This document shows positions 19,519 to 37,673 of a stretch of 56,249 bases of DNA, piece after piece (positions within the stretch are counted from its first letter, which is position 1; each line of letters opens with the position of its first letter). Source of the stretch: an uncultured Chthonomonas sp. GTDB lineage: Bacteria > Armatimonadota > Chthonomonadetes > Chthonomonadales > CAJBBX01. The notes beneath the pieces were generated by a model. It ran no database searches. It saw only the letters and a list, made by a program, of their open reading frames with translations, and was not told the DNA's origin. Where the stretch lies: positions 1 through 56,249 of the forward strand of contig CAJBBX010000023.1 of assembly GCA_903951425.1 (NCBI GenBank), given 5' to 3'. A program made the translations under genes and the position numbers.

Positions 19519-20631
19519 TTGCACCATCCACCCGACCTGAGCCGCGCCAGGCGCCTGCTCATCGTGAAGCTGTCCGCCATAGGCGATGTGGTACACGGGC
19601 TGCCTGTGGCAGCGGCGCTGAAGCGCAGCTTCCCCCGCCTGGGTATCGACTGGGTTGCCGAGCCGCTTGCCGCTCCGCTGCTGCAGGGTTGCCCGGCCGT
19701 TGACGAGGTGATCGTCACCGCAAAGCGCCGCCGCTCCCAGCGCTTCACCGGCCAGGCCCTCCGTGAGACGCTGGCCCTGGGCCGGAGCCTGCGGGCGCGG
19801 GGCTACGACGTAGCGCTGGACATGCAGGGGCTCACCAAGAGCGCCGTCCTGACCGCGCTCTCCGGCGCGCCCTGCCGGTACGGCTACGACTGGACACGCG
19901 AGCTGGCCCCCCTCTTCGAGCGCCGCGTCCCCCGTGCCGAGGCGAGCCTGCACGTCGTAGACCAGCTCCTGGACGTGGCCGCTTATCTCGGCGCCGACAC
20001 CAGCGACCCCGTCTTCCCGTTGACCCTGGGCGAGGACGAACTGGCCGAAGCCCGCGCCGCGCTGGCCGGGGTCGGCATCGACGCATCGCAGCGGTTCGCC
20101 GTCTGCAACCCGACCGAAGGCGGCGGCACCGGCCAGAAGGGCTGGGCGCCCGACCGCATGGCAGAGGCCGTGCGTCGCCTGCAGGCCGAGGACAGCCTGC
20201 CCGTAGTCCTGGTCGGCTCGCCGGCCGACAAGGAGATCGCCGACCGGCTCTGCGCGGCTCAGACGCCGCCGCCCGCCAGCTTGGTGGGCCGGACGAGCCT
20301 GCGGCAGTTGGCCGCCGTGATCCAGTTGGCGGCCGTTCACCTCAGCGGCGACACCGGCTCCTCGCACATCGCTGCGGCGTTGGGCGTGCCGGCGGTGACC
20401 GTCTTCGGGCGATCGAACCCCGACCGGGTCTGCCCGTACGGCTATCGCCAGTACGTGGTGCATCACCGCGAGGCCTGCCACGATGTCTGCCGCCGCTTCC
20501 ATGAGACGGCGGCCATCAACACCACCCAGAAGTGCCTCGCCGACTCGCCGCGCTGCATGGGCGCCATCGAGACGGGAGAGGTGGTGTCCAGGGTGCGCCA
20601 AGCGCTGGCGGATCGCTACGGTCGGGGCTGA
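19519..20631 (+). CDS. GT9-family (heptosyltransferase-like) glycosyltransferase
   Basis: Start is TTG at 19519 with AAGGAG 5 bases upstream; the product is 370 aa, usual for the family. The N-terminal Rossmann half begins RLLIVKLSAIGDVVHGLPVAAALK. The C-terminal half carries VCNPTEGGGTGQKGW and the donor-site region HLSGDTGSSHIAAALGVPAVTVFG. The family transfers heptose or related sugars from ADP-sugar donors onto lipopolysaccharide core, in the cytoplasm. It follows the GH95 gene closely but works in the opposite metabolic direction, so co-transcription may be incidental. Its 3' end overlaps the convergent DUF1566 gene by 16 bases. Confidence 0.9.
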   Translation: MHHPPDLSRARRLLIVKLSAIGDVVHGLPVAAALKRSFPRLGIDWVAEPLAAPLLQGCPAVDEVIVTAKRRRSQRFTGQALRETLALGRSLRARGYDVALDMQGLTKSAVLTALSGAPCRYGYDWTRELAPLFERRVPRAEASLHVVDQLLDVAAYLGADTSDPVFPLTLGEDELAEARAALAGVGIDASQRFAVCNPTEGGGTGQKGWAPDRMAEAVRRLQAEDSLPVVLVGSPADKEIADRLCAAQTPPPASLVGRTSLRQLAAVIQLAAVHLSGDTGSSHIAAALGVPAVTVFGRSNPDRVCPYGYRQYVVHHREACHDVCRRFHETAAINTTQKCLADSPRCMGAIETGEVVSRVRQALADRYGRG

Positions 20632-22118
20632 GCCTCCAGCGGCGTCTTGTTCAGGAGCTTCAGGCCGTCTGCCGAGTACTCGTACAACACACCGTTCCGC
20701 AGGATGACGACGCCGCGGGTCGAGGCCTCCATCCGGCTCTCCATGCCCGCGTCCATTCGCATTTCGGGGCCCATCGGCGATGGCATGCCCGGCCCGGCAT
20801 TGGTCGCCTCCCGTGCGATGGGCGTCAGGTTCGGCTTCACCGGACGAGTGGCGCCGGACTGGAGGTCGCGCACCAGGCGCACGTAGTTCAGGATGTGGAT
20901 CGAGTCGCCCTGCGGACCCCGCCCCGATGCGAACACCGACGGATCGCCTGACTTGGGGTCGCTTCGCTGGCTACCGGCGCCGTGGATATCGATCCACAGC
21001 CCCATGTTGCCCAGCGACCTACCGAAGGCGACGTACACGGCCGTGTCGCCGCGCCCTTCGCCGTGGGTGGTGGAGGTCCAGTAGAAGGGATAGTCGGTCT
21101 GGCCGGCCTCGTTGGTGATGGCCGTGCAGCGGAAGAGCGGCGAGATGGCCGCCGACTGGGTGGCGTCCGGCGAACGGCCGTAGTCGACGATGCTCTGGAG
21201 CTCCTTGGCGTTGGGCAGGCGCCAGTCCGAGTAGCCGAGGTGCTTCGACCGGTTCCGCTCCTGGGCCAGCGCCAGCGCTTGCTGCCACGTCATGCCCTTG
21301 CCGCTGTCCTCCTGCTCCCACATCAAGCCGGTCGCCTGGTCCAGCACCAGCCCCTTGCCTGCCGGCTTTAGCTGGTTGATGCCGTAGCTCCTGGGGCCGC
21401 GGACGCACTGCACGAAGAAGGTCTTGGCGCGCCCACCGGGCATGGTGAGGCCGTACCCCTTGATCCTGCCGTCGGCGAAGTTCACGCCGAAGAGCAGCCT
21501 CCCGACGAAGTTGGTCTTCGCCATGTAGACCGTGCTTGAGGCGTACTGCGAGTCGATCACCCTATCGCCGTCCTCCTCCCTGCCGTAGGCGAACGCGAAC
21601 GCCTTCGTGTCGATGAACGGGATGAGCCCGCCGTTCGCGGCCGCCATCGGGCTCGGGTCGGTGCCCCGGAAGTCGATCAGCGAGTAGAGCTCCTTGATGG
21701 TGGGCAGCCGCCAGTCGGTGTAGCCGCCGTACCGCGCGGCGTTGAGGGCGGCGGGCCGCTTGCAGGCGGCCTCGTAGGTGAGCTTGTCGACAGCGGTCAG
21801 CGCCCCGTCGTTGTTCAGCTCAGGGCTCCTCTGCCACATAAGGCCCGTGACGAGGTCCCGCACCACCCTGCCGTCCTTGCCCACGGCATACACTGGGCGC
21901 CTGCCCTCGAACTGGCCGTCCTGCCCGTAGAAGGCCTCCGTGGGCCCCGGCGCGGCGAGCATCTGCCCACGGTCTGAAAAAATGCGCGTCTGGCCGGTGT
22001 CCGGCAATGGCGATGACAGCGGCTTTGTCTTGGCGGCTTGCTTGGGCGGCCCGGCGACCGCCTGGCCCAGCGATGCGGCGAGCAGGGCCGCGGAGAACAG
22101 GTGGCGATTGAGCATCAT
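20616..22118 (-). CDS. Secreted double-DUF1566 protein with C-terminal 'LRxGxLY' module
   Basis: ATG at 22118 with AGGAGGGG upstream gives 500 aa and a signal peptide (MMLNRHLFSAALLAASLGQAVA). There are two DUF1566 (Lcl C-terminal-like, C-type-lectin-related) domains. The first has TGLMWQRSP...YTDWRLPTIKELYSLIDF. The second has TGLMWEQEDSG...YSDWRLPNAKELQSIVDY. A Met-rich linker follows (MGPEMRMDAGMESRMEA). The end is VVILRNGVLYEYSADGLKLL, then NKTPLE. The same end module occurs in the Met/Gly-rich protein two genes upstream. The gene lies 13 bases after the PQQ-propeller gene, so the two should be co-transcribed. DUF1566 function is unknown beyond association with exported or surface proteins. 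Confidence 0.85.
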   Translation of the reverse strand: MMLNRHLFSAALLAASLGQAVAGPPKQAAKTKPLSSPLPDTGQTRIFSDRGQMLAAPGPTEAFYGQDGQFEGRRPVYAVGKDGRVVRDLVTGLMWQRSPELNNDGALTAVDKLTYEAACKRPAALNAARYGGYTDWRLPTIKELYSLIDFRGTDPSPMAAANGGLIPFIDTKAFAFAYGREEDGDRVIDSQYASSTVYMAKTNFVGRLLFGVNFADGRIKGYGLTMPGGRAKTFFVQCVRGPRSYGINQLKPAGKGLVLDQATGLMWEQEDSGKGMTWQQALALAQERNRSKHLGYSDWRLPNAKELQSIVDYGRSPDATQSAAISPLFRCTAITNEAGQTDYPFYWTSTTHGEGRGDTAVYVAFGRSLGNMGLWIDIHGAGSQRSDPKSGDPSVFASGRGPQGDSIHILNYVRLVRDLQSGATRPVKPNLTPIAREATNAGPGMPSPMGPEMRMDAGMESRMEASTRGVVILRNGVLYEYSADGLKLLNKTPLEAQPRP

Positions 22119-22131
22119 GGTCGGACCCCTC

Positions 22132-23439
22132 CTACTTGCCGAGACAGTACAAGAAACGCTGCGACCGCAGGTAGATGCGGCCCTGGCTGATGGCCGGGCT
22201 GGCGCTGCAGTCACTGGCGTCATCTTCAATCTTGTTGACCGCGATCTGCTCGAACTGCGGCCCGCTTCCCAGAATGAAGGTGCCGTTCGTGCGGCTCGTG
22301 GCGTAGAGCCTGCCGTCGGCCAACACCACCGAGGCGTAGACCGGCATCTTGTTCGACGGCGCGTCCAGTCGCTCCCGGTAGACCGGCTTACCCGTCTGCG
22401 CGTCGGTGCAGCATGCGTATCCCTGCTCGCTGACCCACATCAGGCGGCCCTGGCTGATCACCGGCGACGGCACATAGGGCGCCTGCGCGCTGGTCCAGAG
22501 CAGGTGCGTCTCCGTGACGTCGCCTTCGCCGCCGGCGCGTACTGCCGTCACCGATCGCCTGTTGAAGCCGCCCGCGATGTACATCACCCCACCGGCCGCT
22601 ACCGGGCTCGGACAGACGTTCCCGGCGGTATCGACCCGGGCGTACCAACGGAGCTTGCCGGTGTCGGCGTTGAGGCCCCATACCTCGCCCGCCACGGGGA
22701 CCACCAGGTCCGTGCGGCCCGGCGCCACTTCGAGGACGAGGGGCGTGGCATAGCAGAGCTCGGCGCCGGCGGCTTCGGCGGTCCAGACGACGGCGCCGGT
22801 CTTCTTGTCCAGCGCACGGATCGATCGGCTCTCCTCCGAGGCGTTCACGATCACCCAGTCCTTGTAGAGGACGGGGCTCGCGCCCGAGCCCCAGCGCCGG
22901 TTGCTGGAGCTTGTGCCCAGGCTGGTCTGCCAGAGCTTCTGTCCTTGGAGGTCGAACGCCAGGGCGCCGCTCTTGCCGAAGAAGACATAGACGCGCTCAC
23001 CGTCGGTGACCGGCGTGCTGCTGGCGTACCCATGCTCGGCCAGGTAGCCGGCGTAGGGGTCCTCCGGCAGCGTGGCGGCCACCGCCTGGTTCCAGAGTTG
23101 CTTTCCGGTCCGCTTGTCGAAGCAGATCAGGTGCCGCTTCAGGGCCGCCGGGTCGCTTGCAGCGCCGCCGGGGATGCCGTAGCCGGTGTAGCAGGTGACG
23201 AGTACCTTGTCTCCGAAGACGATAGGGCTGGAGCTGCCCGGTCCCGGCAGGGGGGCCTTCCAGGCGATGCCCTCGGTGGCGCTCCACCGCACAGGCAGCC
23301 CCTTCTCGGTCGCGATGCCTGAGGCCGCCGGGCCGCGGAACTGCGGCCAGTCATCAGCCTGGGCCGGGCCGCTTGGGTCGAGCAGCGCCACGACAGCGGC
23401 GAGGGCTGCGCACAACTGATGTACCGTGCTGAACATCAT
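22132..23439 (-). CDS. Exported PQQ-binding-like beta-propeller protein
   Basis: The product is 435 aa with a signal peptide and then DDWPQFRGPAASG, the opening typical of this class of PQQ-like propeller proteins. Repeated blades carry DKRTGKQLW, DKKTGAVVW, NADTGKLRWYA and DAQTGKPVYRERL. Two adjacent ATGs are possible starts; the ribosome site is weak. These proteins fold as eight-bladed propellers but generally lack proven quinone-dependent dehydrogenase activity, and some act as scaffolds or secreted binding proteins. It is paralogous to the gene at 36411-37673. Transcription continues into the DUF1566 gene after 13 bases. Confidence 0.88.
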   Translation of the reverse strand: MMFSTVHQLCAALAAVVALLDPSGPAQADDWPQFRGPAASGIATEKGLPVRWSATEGIAWKAPLPGPGSSSPIVFGDKVLVTCYTGYGIPGGAASDPAALKRHLICFDKRTGKQLWNQAVAATLPEDPYAGYLAEHGYASSTPVTDGERVYVFFGKSGALAFDLQGQKLWQTSLGTSSSNRRWGSGASPVLYKDWVIVNASEESRSIRALDKKTGAVVWTAEAAGAELCYATPLVLEVAPGRTDLVVPVAGEVWGLNADTGKLRWYARVDTAGNVCPSPVAAGGVMYIAGGFNRRSVTAVRAGGEGDVTETHLLWTSAQAPYVPSPVISQGRLMWVSEQGYACCTDAQTGKPVYRERLDAPSNKMPVYASVVLADGRLYATSRTNGTFILGSGPQFEQIAVNKIEDDASDCSASPAISQGRIYLRSQRFLYCLGK

Positions 23440-23559
23440 GGAGCCTGGGCCTCCGGCCGTTCACAATCAATGGTGCGTCCCGGTCGGGCGCTGGGCTCGG
23501 CCGGGACGTATGGGACATTCGTCGCGTGGTGCGGGTCGGTTAGTCATGAACGAAAGCCG

Positions 23560-24105
23560 CTACTTGGGGCGCTGCTGCATCCCGCCGCCCGGCATCCCGC
23601 CCTGCATTCCGCCCTGCATTCCGCCGGGCCGGCCGCCGGGGCGCATGGACGGCGCCTCGTCCTCAAGCGTCACCTTGTTGAGCAGCTTCAGCTCCTTGGC
23701 GGAGAACTGGTACAGCGTGTTGCCGCGCAGGATGTAGACGTATTCCGCGGTGGCCACCATGACTGGCGTCTGGCCGGGCCGGCCCATGCCGGGCATCATG
23801 CCCATCATGCCGGGTCCGCCCATGCCGGGCATTCCCTGGCCCATGCCGGGACCGCCCTGACCCATGCCGGGTCCGCCCATGCCGGGCCCCATGCCCGGTC
23901 CGCCCTGCATCATGCCGCCCTGCATCGGGTCGCCCTGCATCATGCCGCCCTGCATGGGATCGCCCTGCATGGGGCCGCCCTGGGCGATCTGAATGCTCCG
24001 CGAGCCCTTGGCGCTCTTGGACTTGACCTGCGCCCCAGCGGGGAGCAGCGCGACCGAGAAGAGCAGAGCGGCGGCCGCTACGGCCGGCAGTACTCGGATG
24101 TGCAT
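23560..24105 (-). CDS. Small secreted Met/Gly-rich protein with C-terminal 'LRxGxLY' module
   Basis: The product is 181 aa. ATG at 24105 follows GAGGAGGT. A signal peptide (about 1-25) is followed by a low-complexity tract (about 43-112) of MQGG/MQGD and GPGMGQ/GMGGPGM units. A short conserved module follows (YVYILRGNTLYQFSA, then KELKLLNKVTLE), and a second Gly/Met tail. The module matches the C-terminus of the DUF1566 protein at 20616-22118. The Met density could bind copper or silver or simply form a disordered linker; the sequence does not decide. It is the first of three minus-strand genes, with 120 bases before the PQQ-propeller gene. Confidence 0.8.
   Translation of the reverse strand: MHIRVLPAVAAAALLFSVALLPAGAQVKSKSAKGSRSIQIAQGGPMQGDPMQGGMMQGDPMQGGMMQGGPGMGPGMGGPGMGQGGPGMGQGMPGMGGPGMMGMMPGMGRPGQTPVMVATAEYVYILRGNTLYQFSAKELKLLNKVTLEDEAPSMRPGGRPGGMQGGMQGGMPGGGMQQRPK
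23755..23985. repeat. Coding low-complexity repeats in the Met/Gly-rich gene
   Basis: Short tandem and interspersed units such as CATGCCGGG, CCGCCCTG and ATCATGCCGCCCTGCAT encode the Gly-Met tract on the minus strand. They are in frame and irregular in spacing, so they are protein-coding repeats prone to slippage and length variation, not CRISPR. Confidence 0.7.
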
Positions 24106-33798: not shown

Positions 33799-36333
33799 TC
33801 ACCTCCCGCCTTCCGGCTTCTTCGACGTGTAGCACAAGGTCACCGCCGCGGGCCTCTCCGTCGCGCGTAGCTCCAGCCCCTCCTCCATGAGCATTCGCCC
33901 CGTCAGTGTGCGCACCGCGCCTCTGTCCATCTCCTCCACGGTGTAGGTGGCTGCCGGGTCGAGGCCCCGCAGCTTCACGCGCAGGCTCTCGGTGGGGCAG
34001 TCGGCGCGGCGGAAGGCCTGTACCACACCGCGGCCCTCCTCGGGCAGGTCGAACTGCCATGCCATCCAGGCGTCGTTGGCCTTGCTGTAAGGGGTCAGCG
34101 GCCAGTAGTCGCCCAGTTGGCACGGGCCCACGCGCCGCCACTCGGCCACCATCTTGCGGAGCAGGTCGTAGTCCTGGTCTTTGCGCCGCGTGTCGATGCC
34201 CATGGTGAACTCGGGCGACATCTGGCTGCGGATCAGGTACTTGTCGCACGTTAGGAAGCCCGTGCCGTGGAAGGGGATCCAGGAGGCGACGCCGTAGGTG
34301 TGGCACTGCTCGCCCACGGGTTCGAAGGTGTAGTCGCTGCGGAGGAGCGGCACGGCGCGGCGAAGGGTCTCCAGGTCGTTGCGGCGGCCTCCCGAGGCGC
34401 AGGAGTCGATGAGCATCCCCGGCCGCCGGCGCTGTAGGTCATCCCAGTATGCGAGGTAGCCCGCCACGTGGCGCATCTCGGCCACGCCCTGCCGGTCGTC
34501 GGCGTCGTCCGATTGCCAGTAGCTGAGCGGGTCGATGTTGAAGTCCTGCCGGTAGAGGTCGATGCCCTGATCGGTCATCAGCTTGTCGATGTGCTGGGCC
34601 AGCCAGGATCGGCACTCGGGGTCGCCCAGCCGTAGCAGGCCGCCCGCCTTGCCGCCGATGACCCACTGCGGACGCTGCTCGGCCAGCCATGTGCCTGCCG
34701 CCACGCGCTCGGGCTCGAACCAGACGATGGTGCGGATGCCTCGCTGCCGAGCCCAGTCGCTGACGCCCCGGATGCCCTGGGGCCAGCGGCTCGGCTCCAC
34801 CTCCCAGGTGCCGACCTTGGGCCAGCCGTCCGGGTCGCAGGGGTACCAGCCGGCGTCCTGCCACCAGAACTCGGGTCGGACGCCCTGCTCCAGGTAGCCG
34901 TTGAGGAAGCGCTGCTCCTCGGTTCCGTTGCTGATGATGCCGGGGTAGTGGTTCCCGTTGCAGGCCGACAGCATGGGCTTGATGGGCTTGCCGTCGGGGC
35001 GGGGAAGGTTGTGGGCCACCATCCAGCGCCGCCAGAGGTTCTGCGCGCGCTCCGGATCGCCGCGATGGAAAAGGAGTACTCCCATGGCGCTCCGCAACGC
35101 CTCGCCCGGCTCCATGGCGAAGCGGGTCCGCTCCTGCCCGCCGCAGACGCGCAGGCGGCCGGAGGCGTCGCGCATGAAGTCGGCGGACCACTGGCCCGCC
35201 CAGCCGATGACCGCCAGGGCGCCGCCGCCGGGCCAGGCAAGGCTGAAGTAGGGCATGTCGCTGTTGGTGGGTCGCCCGCCCTGCGTGGCTACATGCCGCG
35301 ACGCGCCGGGCGCCATGGGCTCCACGATGGGCTCGTAGTCATTGGCGGCGCAGATGCTGCCGAGCCAGCGGCGCAGTTCCAGCGGGCCCTTGCCCGGACG
35401 CTCCAACCTGACGTCGAGCGAACGCACCCCCTCGATGATCGGCGACCGTGTGCCCGACCGATTGCGGAAGGCCAGCGTCCACTCGACCACAGGATAGTCG
35501 CGGTAGGTGACGGCGGTGCAGACGGCTTCCAGCCCCGGCCCCGGCTCGGTGAAGGTGAGGGTCCGCTGGGTGCGGCCGCCGGACAGCTTGCTGGTGGCGG
35601 TTGCGAATTGCCAGGTCGGCAGCAGCTCGTCGGACGGCACGCCGCCGTAGGTGAACGAGAAGGGAAGCCCGTAGACCGTGCGCGTCCGCGGCGCCTCGCT
35701 TGCCACGGGCAGGTCGCCCAGCCGCACGCCGCGGCCGTCGGCCAGCGTCGCCACGGCCTCGGCCCAGTTGGCCTGGTCGCAGGAGATGCCGTCGCCGGCG
35801 TCGCCCGCCTCCAGCGTGAACTCGGAGGCGCCGGAGAGAGGCACATCGATGGCCTCGGCAGGCTTGCCGCAGGTGACGGTGCCCGACCGGTAGGCGCGAA
35901 CGCCGTCCACGCGCACGCCGAAGACGACGGTGCCGCCATTGGCGTGGTCGTCGATGCCGATGCGCGCCGTCAGCCTCTCACCTGGGCCGGGTAGCCGCAC
36001 CACGACCTTGCTCGGCGCGTGGCAGTAGAGGCCGTGGCCGTAGTCCACGCCGCCGATGCGCAGCGGAGCGCCGCCCCGGGCGTTCAGTTGCACGGGGCCG
36101 TGGTTCGCCAGCACGGTGAGCCCCGCCGACGGGGCGACAGGCGCCGCTTTGCGGGCAGGCGCCGCCGGTCGCCGGAGATGGGCCGCAACCCAGCGGCCGG
36201 CGTCGGCCATCTCGGCCGGAGTGGGAAGACAGACCGGTCGGGCGGGGCTCATGGCGAGTAGACCTCCCAATCCTGCGATGCATGGAAGCATGGGCGCGTA
36301 CCTCTGCCGCAAGGTTCGGCATCGGGTCGCCAC
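33799..36333 (-). CDS. Secreted GH36/GH27-type alpha-galactosidase with N-terminal NPCBM domain
   Basis: The product is 844 aa from GTG at 36333, chosen because the Arg-rich stretch makes a proper signal-peptide n-region; ATG at 36291 is the alternative. Residues about 85-200 are an NPCBM-type galactose-binding domain (GGVDYGHGLYCHAPSKVVVRL...FGVRVDG). The GH36 sandwich follows, then the barrel with WWQDAGWYPCD, IVWFEPERV, D597 in LYRQDFN (candidate nucleophile) and D653 in SCASGGRRND (candidate acid). It releases alpha-galactose residues by a retaining mechanism. The next gene follows at 3 bases. A decayed second copy of its C-terminus lies at 31340-31465. Confidence 0.92.
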   Translation of the reverse strand: MATRCRTLRQRYAPMLPCIAGLGGLLAMSPARPVCLPTPAEMADAGRWVAAHLRRPAAPARKAAPVAPSAGLTVLANHGPVQLNARGGAPLRIGGVDYGHGLYCHAPSKVVVRLPGPGERLTARIGIDDHANGGTVVFGVRVDGVRAYRSGTVTCGKPAEAIDVPLSGASEFTLEAGDAGDGISCDQANWAEAVATLADGRGVRLGDLPVASEAPRTRTVYGLPFSFTYGGVPSDELLPTWQFATATSKLSGGRTQRTLTFTEPGPGLEAVCTAVTYRDYPVVEWTLAFRNRSGTRSPIIEGVRSLDVRLERPGKGPLELRRWLGSICAANDYEPIVEPMAPGASRHVATQGGRPTNSDMPYFSLAWPGGGALAVIGWAGQWSADFMRDASGRLRVCGGQERTRFAMEPGEALRSAMGVLLFHRGDPERAQNLWRRWMVAHNLPRPDGKPIKPMLSACNGNHYPGIISNGTEEQRFLNGYLEQGVRPEFWWQDAGWYPCDPDGWPKVGTWEVEPSRWPQGIRGVSDWARQRGIRTIVWFEPERVAAGTWLAEQRPQWVIGGKAGGLLRLGDPECRSWLAQHIDKLMTDQGIDLYRQDFNIDPLSYWQSDDADDRQGVAEMRHVAGYLAYWDDLQRRRPGMLIDSCASGGRRNDLETLRRAVPLLRSDYTFEPVGEQCHTYGVASWIPFHGTGFLTCDKYLIRSQMSPEFTMGIDTRRKDQDYDLLRKMVAEWRRVGPCQLGDYWPLTPYSKANDAWMAWQFDLPEEGRGVVQAFRRADCPTESLRVKLRGLDPAATYTVEEMDRGAVRTLTGRMLMEEGLELRATERPAAVTLCYTSKKPEGGR

Positions 36334-36410
36334 TCACCTGCCCCACATCCCTCCGCGGGGAGGTATCCTCCGCCCGCAAGGTGAACCTTGTGCCGGAGGA
36401 GCTACTACCC

Positions 36411-37673
36411 GTGAAGTTTCAAATGATGAGCGCGCTATTGGTCGGCCTGATGACGGCGGTGGCCAATGCGGGCGCCCAGACCGGTGAGCCGGAGTGGCCC
36501 GAGTACCGCGGCCCGGCCCGCACCGGAACCGCCGTGGCGAAGGGCTTGCCCACCGCCTGGAGCGAGACGAGCAACGTGGTCTGGAAGACGCCCATCCACG
36601 GCCGCGGCTGGTCCACACCGGTGGTCTACGGCCAGCGCCTCTGGCTGACCACGGCGTCCGAGGACGGCAGAGCCATGTCCGTCGTCTGCCTCGACCGGCA
36701 GAGCGGCAAGGTGCTGCTGGACAAGGTCCTCTTCCAGCCGACATCGCCGGGCGACTTCAATCCCACCAACAGCTGGGCTTCTCCCTCGCCGGTGGCGGGC
36801 CGTGGCCGGGTCGTCGTCCACTTCGGCACCCACGGCACGGCCTGCTTCGACAACAAGACGCTGGCGCAGCTCTGGCAGCGCACCGACCTTAACTGCAACC
36901 ACATGGTGGGACCCGGCTCCTCGCCGCTGCTTGCCGGCGACCGGCTTTACCTCACCTATGACGGCACCGACACGCAGCGCACCTACTGCCTGAACCTCGC
37001 CACCGGCGCCACCCTCTGGATGGCCGACCGAACCAGCGGCCCCGCCGCATCGGTGGCCTTCGACCGCCGCAAGTGCTTCAACACCCCTGTCCTGGCCACC
37101 TACCAGGGCAAGCAGCAGCTCATCTGCCAGGCGGCCATGGGCGTCTTCGCCTACGACCCCGCCACGGGCCAGGAGATCTGGCGCGTGCGGCACGGCGGCT
37201 ACTCCAACGCCTCGCGCACGCTGGTCGACGCCGAGCGCGTCTATGTCAGCACGGGCTTCGACTCGTCGCATATGCTGGCGATACGCTTGGGCGGAAGCGG
37301 CGACGTTACGGCCACCCACGTGGCGTGGGAGCTGGACCGGGGCATGCCCAGCAAGCCATCGCCCATCCTGCTCGGCGACCGCATCCTGGTGATCGCCGAC
37401 TCGGGCACGCTTACCTGCCTGGAGGCGGCCACCGGCAAGACGCTCTACAAGGAGCGCCTCACCGGCACCTACTCCTCCAGTCCCATCCTGGCCGATGACC
37501 GCATCTACCTCTTCAGCGAGCAGGGACGCGGCTATGTGCTGGACCCCGGACCCGCGTTCAAGGTGATCGCCGAGAGCGAGTTGCCCGAGGGCTGCATGGC
37601 CTCACCCGTCGCCGTAGGCAAGACGCTCTTCGTGCGCACCAAGGCTGCCGTCTACCGGCTCGAGGCGAAGTAG
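36411..37673 (+). CDS. Exported PQQ-binding-like beta-propeller protein (second paralogue)
   Basis: GTG at 36411, with GGAGGAG upstream, gives 420 aa and a signal peptide (MKFQMMSALLVGLMTAVANAGA); the frame is open back to 36282 but lacks a sensible leader. EPEWPEYRGPARTGTAVAKGLP matches, in style and position, DDWPQFRGPAASGIATEKGLP of the gene at 22132-23439. Blades contain DRQSGKVLLDK, NLATGATLWMA, DPATGQEIWRV and EAATGKTLYKERL. It diverges from the GH36 operon over 77 bases and converges on the URO-D-like gene with a 1-base gap. Role unknown; binding or scaffold is the cautious guess. Confidence 0.88.
   Translation: MKFQMMSALLVGLMTAVANAGAQTGEPEWPEYRGPARTGTAVAKGLPTAWSETSNVVWKTPIHGRGWSTPVVYGQRLWLTTASEDGRAMSVVCLDRQSGKVLLDKVLFQPTSPGDFNPTNSWASPSPVAGRGRVVVHFGTHGTACFDNKTLAQLWQRTDLNCNHMVGPGSSPLLAGDRLYLTYDGTDTQRTYCLNLATGATLWMADRTSGPAASVAFDRRKCFNTPVLATYQGKQQLICQAAMGVFAYDPATGQEIWRVRHGGYSNASRTLVDAERVYVSTGFDSSHMLAIRLGGSGDVTATHVAWELDRGMPSKPSPILLGDRILVIADSGTLTCLEAATGKTLYKERLTGTYSSSPILADDRIYLFSEQGRGYVLDPGPAFKVIAESELPEGCMASPVAVGKTLFVRTKAAVYRLEAK

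Follow-up and report, generated by a model that had tools for sequence, protein, structure and literature searches.

Two exported proteins encoded on either side of a PQQ/BamB-like propeller gene in an uncultured Chthonomonas sp. share a module of about 37 residues, which is predicted to be one four-stranded beta-propeller blade. The module recurs across the Armatimonadota, most often as a lone blade in a short exported protein and also grafted onto unrelated exported proteins. We put at about even the chance that free and grafted copies of this orphan blade co-assemble via their hydrophobic faces, so that the blade would serve the cell envelope as a self-assembling docking tag.

The locus and the shared module

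The window, meaning the whole stretch of DNA analysed, has 56,249 nucleotides. It contains three genes, here called A, P and B, which all lie on the reverse strand with P between A and B, as the initial annotation had described (Table 1). B starts at the ATG at 22118, 13 bp after P, and a GGAGG sequence overlaps the P stop codon. In Pfam, two stretches of B match Lcl_C (PF07603, E 6.7e-46), and gene A has no match in either Pfam or NCBIfam. In two congeners, gene A is found at 90-91% identity. A scan of the locus for promoters and terminators, which is uninformative in this GC-rich genome, returned no sites.

Table 1. Positions of the three genes and of the module-related features within the window
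Feature	Position	Strand	Details
Gene A, Met/Gly-rich exported protein, 181 aa	23560-24105	-	Signal sequence, disordered Gly/Met-rich arm, one predicted blade, disordered tail
Gly/Met-rich low-complexity arm ahead of the A blade	23767-23982	-	Tandem GGPMQGDPMQ-type repeats; pLDDT ~50
Predicted single-blade module in A	23656-23766	-	Profile match E 1.6e-21
Predicted strands of the A blade	~23752-23763, 23725-23742, 23701-23718, 23668-23685	-	
Gene P, complete PQQ/BamB-like beta-propeller, 435 aa	22132-23439	-	PF13360, E 1.8e-32
Gene B, double Lcl_C (DUF1566) exported protein, 500 aa	20616-22118	-	Grafted C-terminal predicted blade
Met-rich linker between the Lcl_C domains and the blade in B	20739-20800	-	Absent from homologues without the blade
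Predicted single-blade module in B, C-terminal	20628-20738	-	Profile match E 9.7e-16

The module covers approximately residues 114-150 of A (PVMVATAEYVYILRGNTLYQFSAKELKLLNKVTLE) and the C-terminus of B (RMEASTRGVVILRNGVLYEYSADGLKLLNKTPLE). A local alignment of the two copies scores 79, whereas the best of 20,000 shuffles reaches only 46. The similarity is far above chance, and the initial annotation was right to propose a module common to both proteins. It had also placed the module at the C-terminus of both. This holds for B, but in A the module is internal and is followed by a Gly/Met-rich tail of 31 residues. The motif given as LRxGxLY needs correction to LR-xxx-LY (LRGNTLY versus LRNGVLY), and the Met-rich linkers reported near the module do precede both copies. 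As for P, the module profile scores below zero on it.

The genome has a third copy, on contig C175, near the N-terminus of a PEBP-like protein of ~719 aa. A neighbouring gene appears related to the PEBP-like protein and is absent from the module matches. The dN/dS values are 0.17-0.28 for A, 0.12 for P, 0.21 for B and 0.19-0.23 for the PEBP-like protein, and all four are kept by purifying selection.

Two other propeller genes of this genome were noted. One, a second PQQ_2 gene at 36282-37673 (+) in the window, is ~33% identical to P and lies ~12 kb from the trio. The other, on contig C92 (L004, 541-2268, -), encodes a PQQ propeller with a Met/Gly-rich tail like the arm of A, without the blade module.

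Predicted fold

Given 19 natural sequences as input, AlphaFold2 models a four-stranded meander, with strands at residues 10-13, 17-22, 25-30 and 36-41. The pLDDT is ~97 over residues 11-40 of the folded segment of A. The full-length model of A consists of a signal helix and the blade only, with the remainder disordered (pLDDT near 50).

The top PDB matches of the module model in Foldseek are nearly all beta-propellers (Vps18, Atg18, MET Sema, AztD, BamB). Their probability is ~1 and their rmsd mostly 0.6-3 A over 31-47 columns, and no E-value falls below 0.07 because the query is tiny. VIA-align 2 gives Z scores of up to 5.4, mostly to propellers; scores under 8 can reflect a common arrangement, and the four-stranded meander is a simple one. 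The blade call therefore rests jointly on strand count and order, blade size, the propeller-dominated match list and the register with PQQ blades. As a model-based assignment, one four-stranded propeller blade is well supported.

Strand B is 75-100% hydrophobic at five successive positions, and L18, Y21, F23, L31 and L39 reach 98-100%. Both faces of the predicted sheet are therefore hydrophobic, as in a propeller blade flanked by two others. The AlphaFold2 model has the four-stranded antiparallel unit of a beta-propeller. A ring closed by at least four blades in one chain is not found, A and most members having one blade and a few having two. In the two-blade proteins (L138, L154 and L197) the modules are split by a linker, and these proteins are possibly early amplification steps.

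Relation to known families

Aligned by hhalign with 26 PQQ blades of the same genome, the module scores 11.8, compared with a maximum of 10.2 in 100 column permutations, at a probability of only 5%. Its consensus reaches E 0.24 and 11.4 bits against PQQ_2, below the cut-off of 27.6. These values are only suggestive of a sequence kinship with PQQ blades.

Among 55 free-standing members, Pfam returned no PQQ match, and Pfam and NCBIfam together gave nothing coherent, with no family covering the module. A PDB sequence search with the module profile returned nothing significant. Judged by these sequence searches, the module is a distinct family, without match to ordinary propellers at the thresholds used. 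The initial annotation had considered that a ubiquitous propeller fragment would count against its proposal, and the module is not of that kind. Having one blade per chain and scoring below the PQQ cut-off, it is therefore filed neither as a propeller nor as a PQQ protein.

Distribution and free-standing form

The search proposed in the initial annotation, for the module in other proteins, was productive in the genome itself (the copy on C175) and throughout the phylum. A 50-sequence profile at E 1e-4 detects the module in 115 of 291 Armatimonadota genomes, representing 74 of 156 genera, and a 13-sequence profile at E 1e-3 detects it in 79 of the 291. It is present in 9 of 294 Planctomycetota genomes and in none of the viral contigs searched. 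Named relatives with the module are mostly Armatimonadota. One contig with a module gene (L046; G036 C73) is a near-perfect palindrome with mirrored gene order, duplicating that gene, and is probably an assembly artefact.

The most common form is a free-standing exported protein, composed of a signal sequence, a Gly/Pro/Gln/Met-rich arm, one predicted blade and a tail. Module proteins shorter than 260 aa have a median length of 145 aa, and a strong hydrophobic segment at the N-terminus is found in 66 of 70. An AxA-Q-like cleavage site is found in 56 of 69 free-standing module proteins.

Propeller genes often arise and decay (PMC9218822), so the module might be a decaying propeller fragment, or else a low-complexity artefact, in either case without function. 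We regard this as extremely improbable. The same residues and architecture are found in 74 genera, under purifying selection and with a confident predicted fold, and this conservation already contradicts a relic.

Grafts onto other exported proteins

Proteins that carry the blade as a graft include Lcl_C (B), PEBP-like (PF01161), YHYH (PF14240), CotH with EF-hands (PF08757) and PDZ proteins, one PDZ graft protein also having an STN domain. A further graft is on a Planctomycetota protein without Pfam match. The blade is found at C-terminal, N-terminal and internal sites of its hosts. Grafting is seen in several lineages, and the linkers resemble the arms of the free form. With one and the same blade attached to five or more unrelated types of exported protein, a role as a common docking tag is plausible.

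In the case of B, the homologues of families f16 and f17, which are 50-56% identical, stop at the very point where the B linker starts. The linker and blade were therefore most likely added to B in or near the genus, as far as these sequence comparisons tell. The initial annotation had offered a single-blade graft as one reading, which agrees both with these homologues lacking the module and with its predicted fold.

Free copies accompany grafts in 10 of the 15 Armatimonadota genomes with a graft, and possibly in 2 more. Counting 12 of 15, Fisher's test gives P 0.001 with shared ancestry ignored. For this reason, and since the two possible free copies are counted, the co-occurrence of graft and free copies across genomes is only suggestive. 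Grafts without a detected free copy are found in G263, G265, G238 and the Planctomycetota genome G291.

The first three of these genomes, with a graft only, fit another reading, in which the docking partner of the lone blade is some other envelope component (a receptor, an anchor or another beta-sheet protein with an open edge) and the copies do not bind each other. Grafting onto unrelated exported proteins at both ends and internally is likewise what a portable docking tag of this kind would show. We give this reading a minor but real chance, perhaps that of one guess among four. It is weakened by the two hydrophobic faces, which suit a two-sided self-packing unit, and by the gene neighbourhoods, where no gene accompanies the module in a majority of families and therefore no candidate partner emerges.

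Gene neighbourhood

The A-P-B order is kept in G000 and G002, and the contig of G001 ends inside B; these are the three sequenced species of genus g1. Beyond the genus, none of the other sampled module loci has a P-like propeller next to the module. The initial annotation had proposed a three-gene set in which A and B dock to one partner, possibly the propeller between them, and had named the genes not being neighbours in relatives as a finding against it. At the module loci sampled outside the genus the trio is absent, so the arrangement is a feature of the genus only.

PQQ propellers are present in 20 of 20 module genomes tested, and P homologues are also found in genomes without a detected module (G009, G005). 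Their co-presence with the module, the other part of the proposed search, is therefore uninformative. Within the genus, the conserved order, the narrow gap between P and B and the purifying selection on all three genes would still suit a three-gene system with docking to P. Considering the other loci, the P homologues in module-less genomes and the background level of ~2.4% of genes having a PQQ gene within 3 kb, we hold such a system to be quite improbable. As a general mechanism, docking to a neighbouring propeller is rejected, as no P-like neighbour occurs at the loci sampled beyond the genus and PQQ propellers occur with or without the module.

Over ~78 module loci, the search for a conserved partner gave scattered small groups only, none of them phylum-wide. 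Genes for a related protein of ~900-1240 aa (335 aa in L126) are found near the module gene, in either orientation, in families f22, f44, f27 and f26 (loci L124, L126, L128, L140, L148 and L151). Prepilin-like genes are near some module genes and are common in these genomes. Two-component regulator genes adjoin module genes in families f17, f11, f15 and f39. OmpR-type response regulator genes were seen near module genes at L041 (6190-6870), L112 (4851-5537), L043, L127 and L149, some with histidine-kinase-like genes beside them.

The presence of such regulators in a few families would be in keeping with metal handling, in which the Met-rich arms would bind a soft metal such as copper in the envelope, with the blade as scaffold. 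The Met content of the 25-residue stretch just ahead of the blade is 13%, compared with 4.9% in other flanks, and one protein, the two-blade L154, has Cys/His/Met-rich stretches (CPMCGGMMGG and HCPMMQQM). However, Met is missing from the 25-residue stretch in family f6 (nine genomes), no metal-transport gene was seen to recur beside the module, and typical metal-binding residues are not conserved in the blade. Overall, we consider metal handling unlikely.

Possible mode of action and significance

Of these readings we prefer the self-assembling blade. With hydrophobic side chains on both sheet faces, a lone blade should not stay solitary and would be expected to pack against something. In most module genomes the simplest partner would be another copy of the blade. 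Copies would then most likely pack face to face into a homo-oligomeric propeller or a stack, and grafted copies (in B, the PEBP-like protein, YHYH and CotH proteins) would join assemblies of the free protein A. The blade would in this way be an envelope docking tag that assembles by itself, with P a neighbour of A and B and not a partner.

Single engineered WD40 blades of PkwA were unfolded monomers, so assembly of one blade is not assured; oligomeric propellers are known from fragments of 2-6 blades, and the solved oligomers used two or more blades (PMC6805158). The function of single blades has so far been studied with such engineered fragments, and those made of a single PkwA blade did not fold. 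With a conserved natural family of one-blade chains, the single-blade question could be put to evolved proteins.

Should lone blades join into propellers in nature, a form seen so far mainly in engineered proteins would have living examples. A portable docking tag, if true, would link several unrelated envelope proteins. Armatimonadota, a poorly studied phylum, would also gain a new exported domain without Pfam or NCBIfam model.

A single blade is the supposed starting point from which propellers grew. Somewhat more tentatively, at a little under even chances, we propose that these are natural, phylum-wide single-blade exported proteins that form homo- or hetero-oligomeric propellers with the blade as docking tag, a present-day counterpart of the single-blade ancestor that has been proposed for the major lineages of propellers. 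No description of a natural, widespread single-blade domain or module family was found in the literature searched, most subscription journals being outside its scope. From its sequence and model, the module appears to be a known structural unit, the propeller blade, with a new way of life.

Comparison with known systems

Sorting tags of the PEP-CTERM type are marked by a position at the extreme C-terminus, a membrane helix and a basic tail, and the module lacks this combination. Its position is internal in A and close to the N-terminus of the PEBP-like protein, and the tail of A is only Gly/Met-rich.

The blades of PQQ/BamB propellers (PF13360 and relatives) are, like the predicted module, four-stranded meanders of the same size, and the module stretch LYQFDAKTLKL is in register with the PQQ stretch "LDAATGK..W". 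However, these propellers have four to twelve blades per chain while module proteins mostly have one, and the module is without the Gly and Trp of the PQQ motif and passes no Pfam cut-off. The IRE1 luminal domain and type II beta-prisms also descend from propeller blades in a non-propeller setting (PMC3797127). In contrast to the module, they have several blade-like repeats per chain and folds of their own, and no portable single-blade domain.

The nearest analogues are YmzC and engineered blade fragments. YmzC of Bacillus subtilis (PDB 3kvp) is a small solved protein, of which 38 of 43 resolved residues superpose on the module model in VIA-align 2 (Z 4.7, rmsd 1.6 A). The crystal has six chains of a 72-residue construct, of which only ~43 residues are resolved, as a blade-like sheet. 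Identity is 10% over the aligned residues, and the module profile, run against PDB sequences with E values of up to 10, does not recover YmzC, so the likeness is in fold only. YmzC is one small B. subtilis protein; no description of it as a blade was found in the literature searched, and we know of no graft family of YmzC.

Finally, engineered fragments (PkwA, WRAP, Pizza, tachylectin-2) are parts of propellers made as separate chains, and can homo-oligomerise (PMC6805158, PMC7337062). These are man-made, whereas the module is predicted to be one blade per chain encoded in nature.
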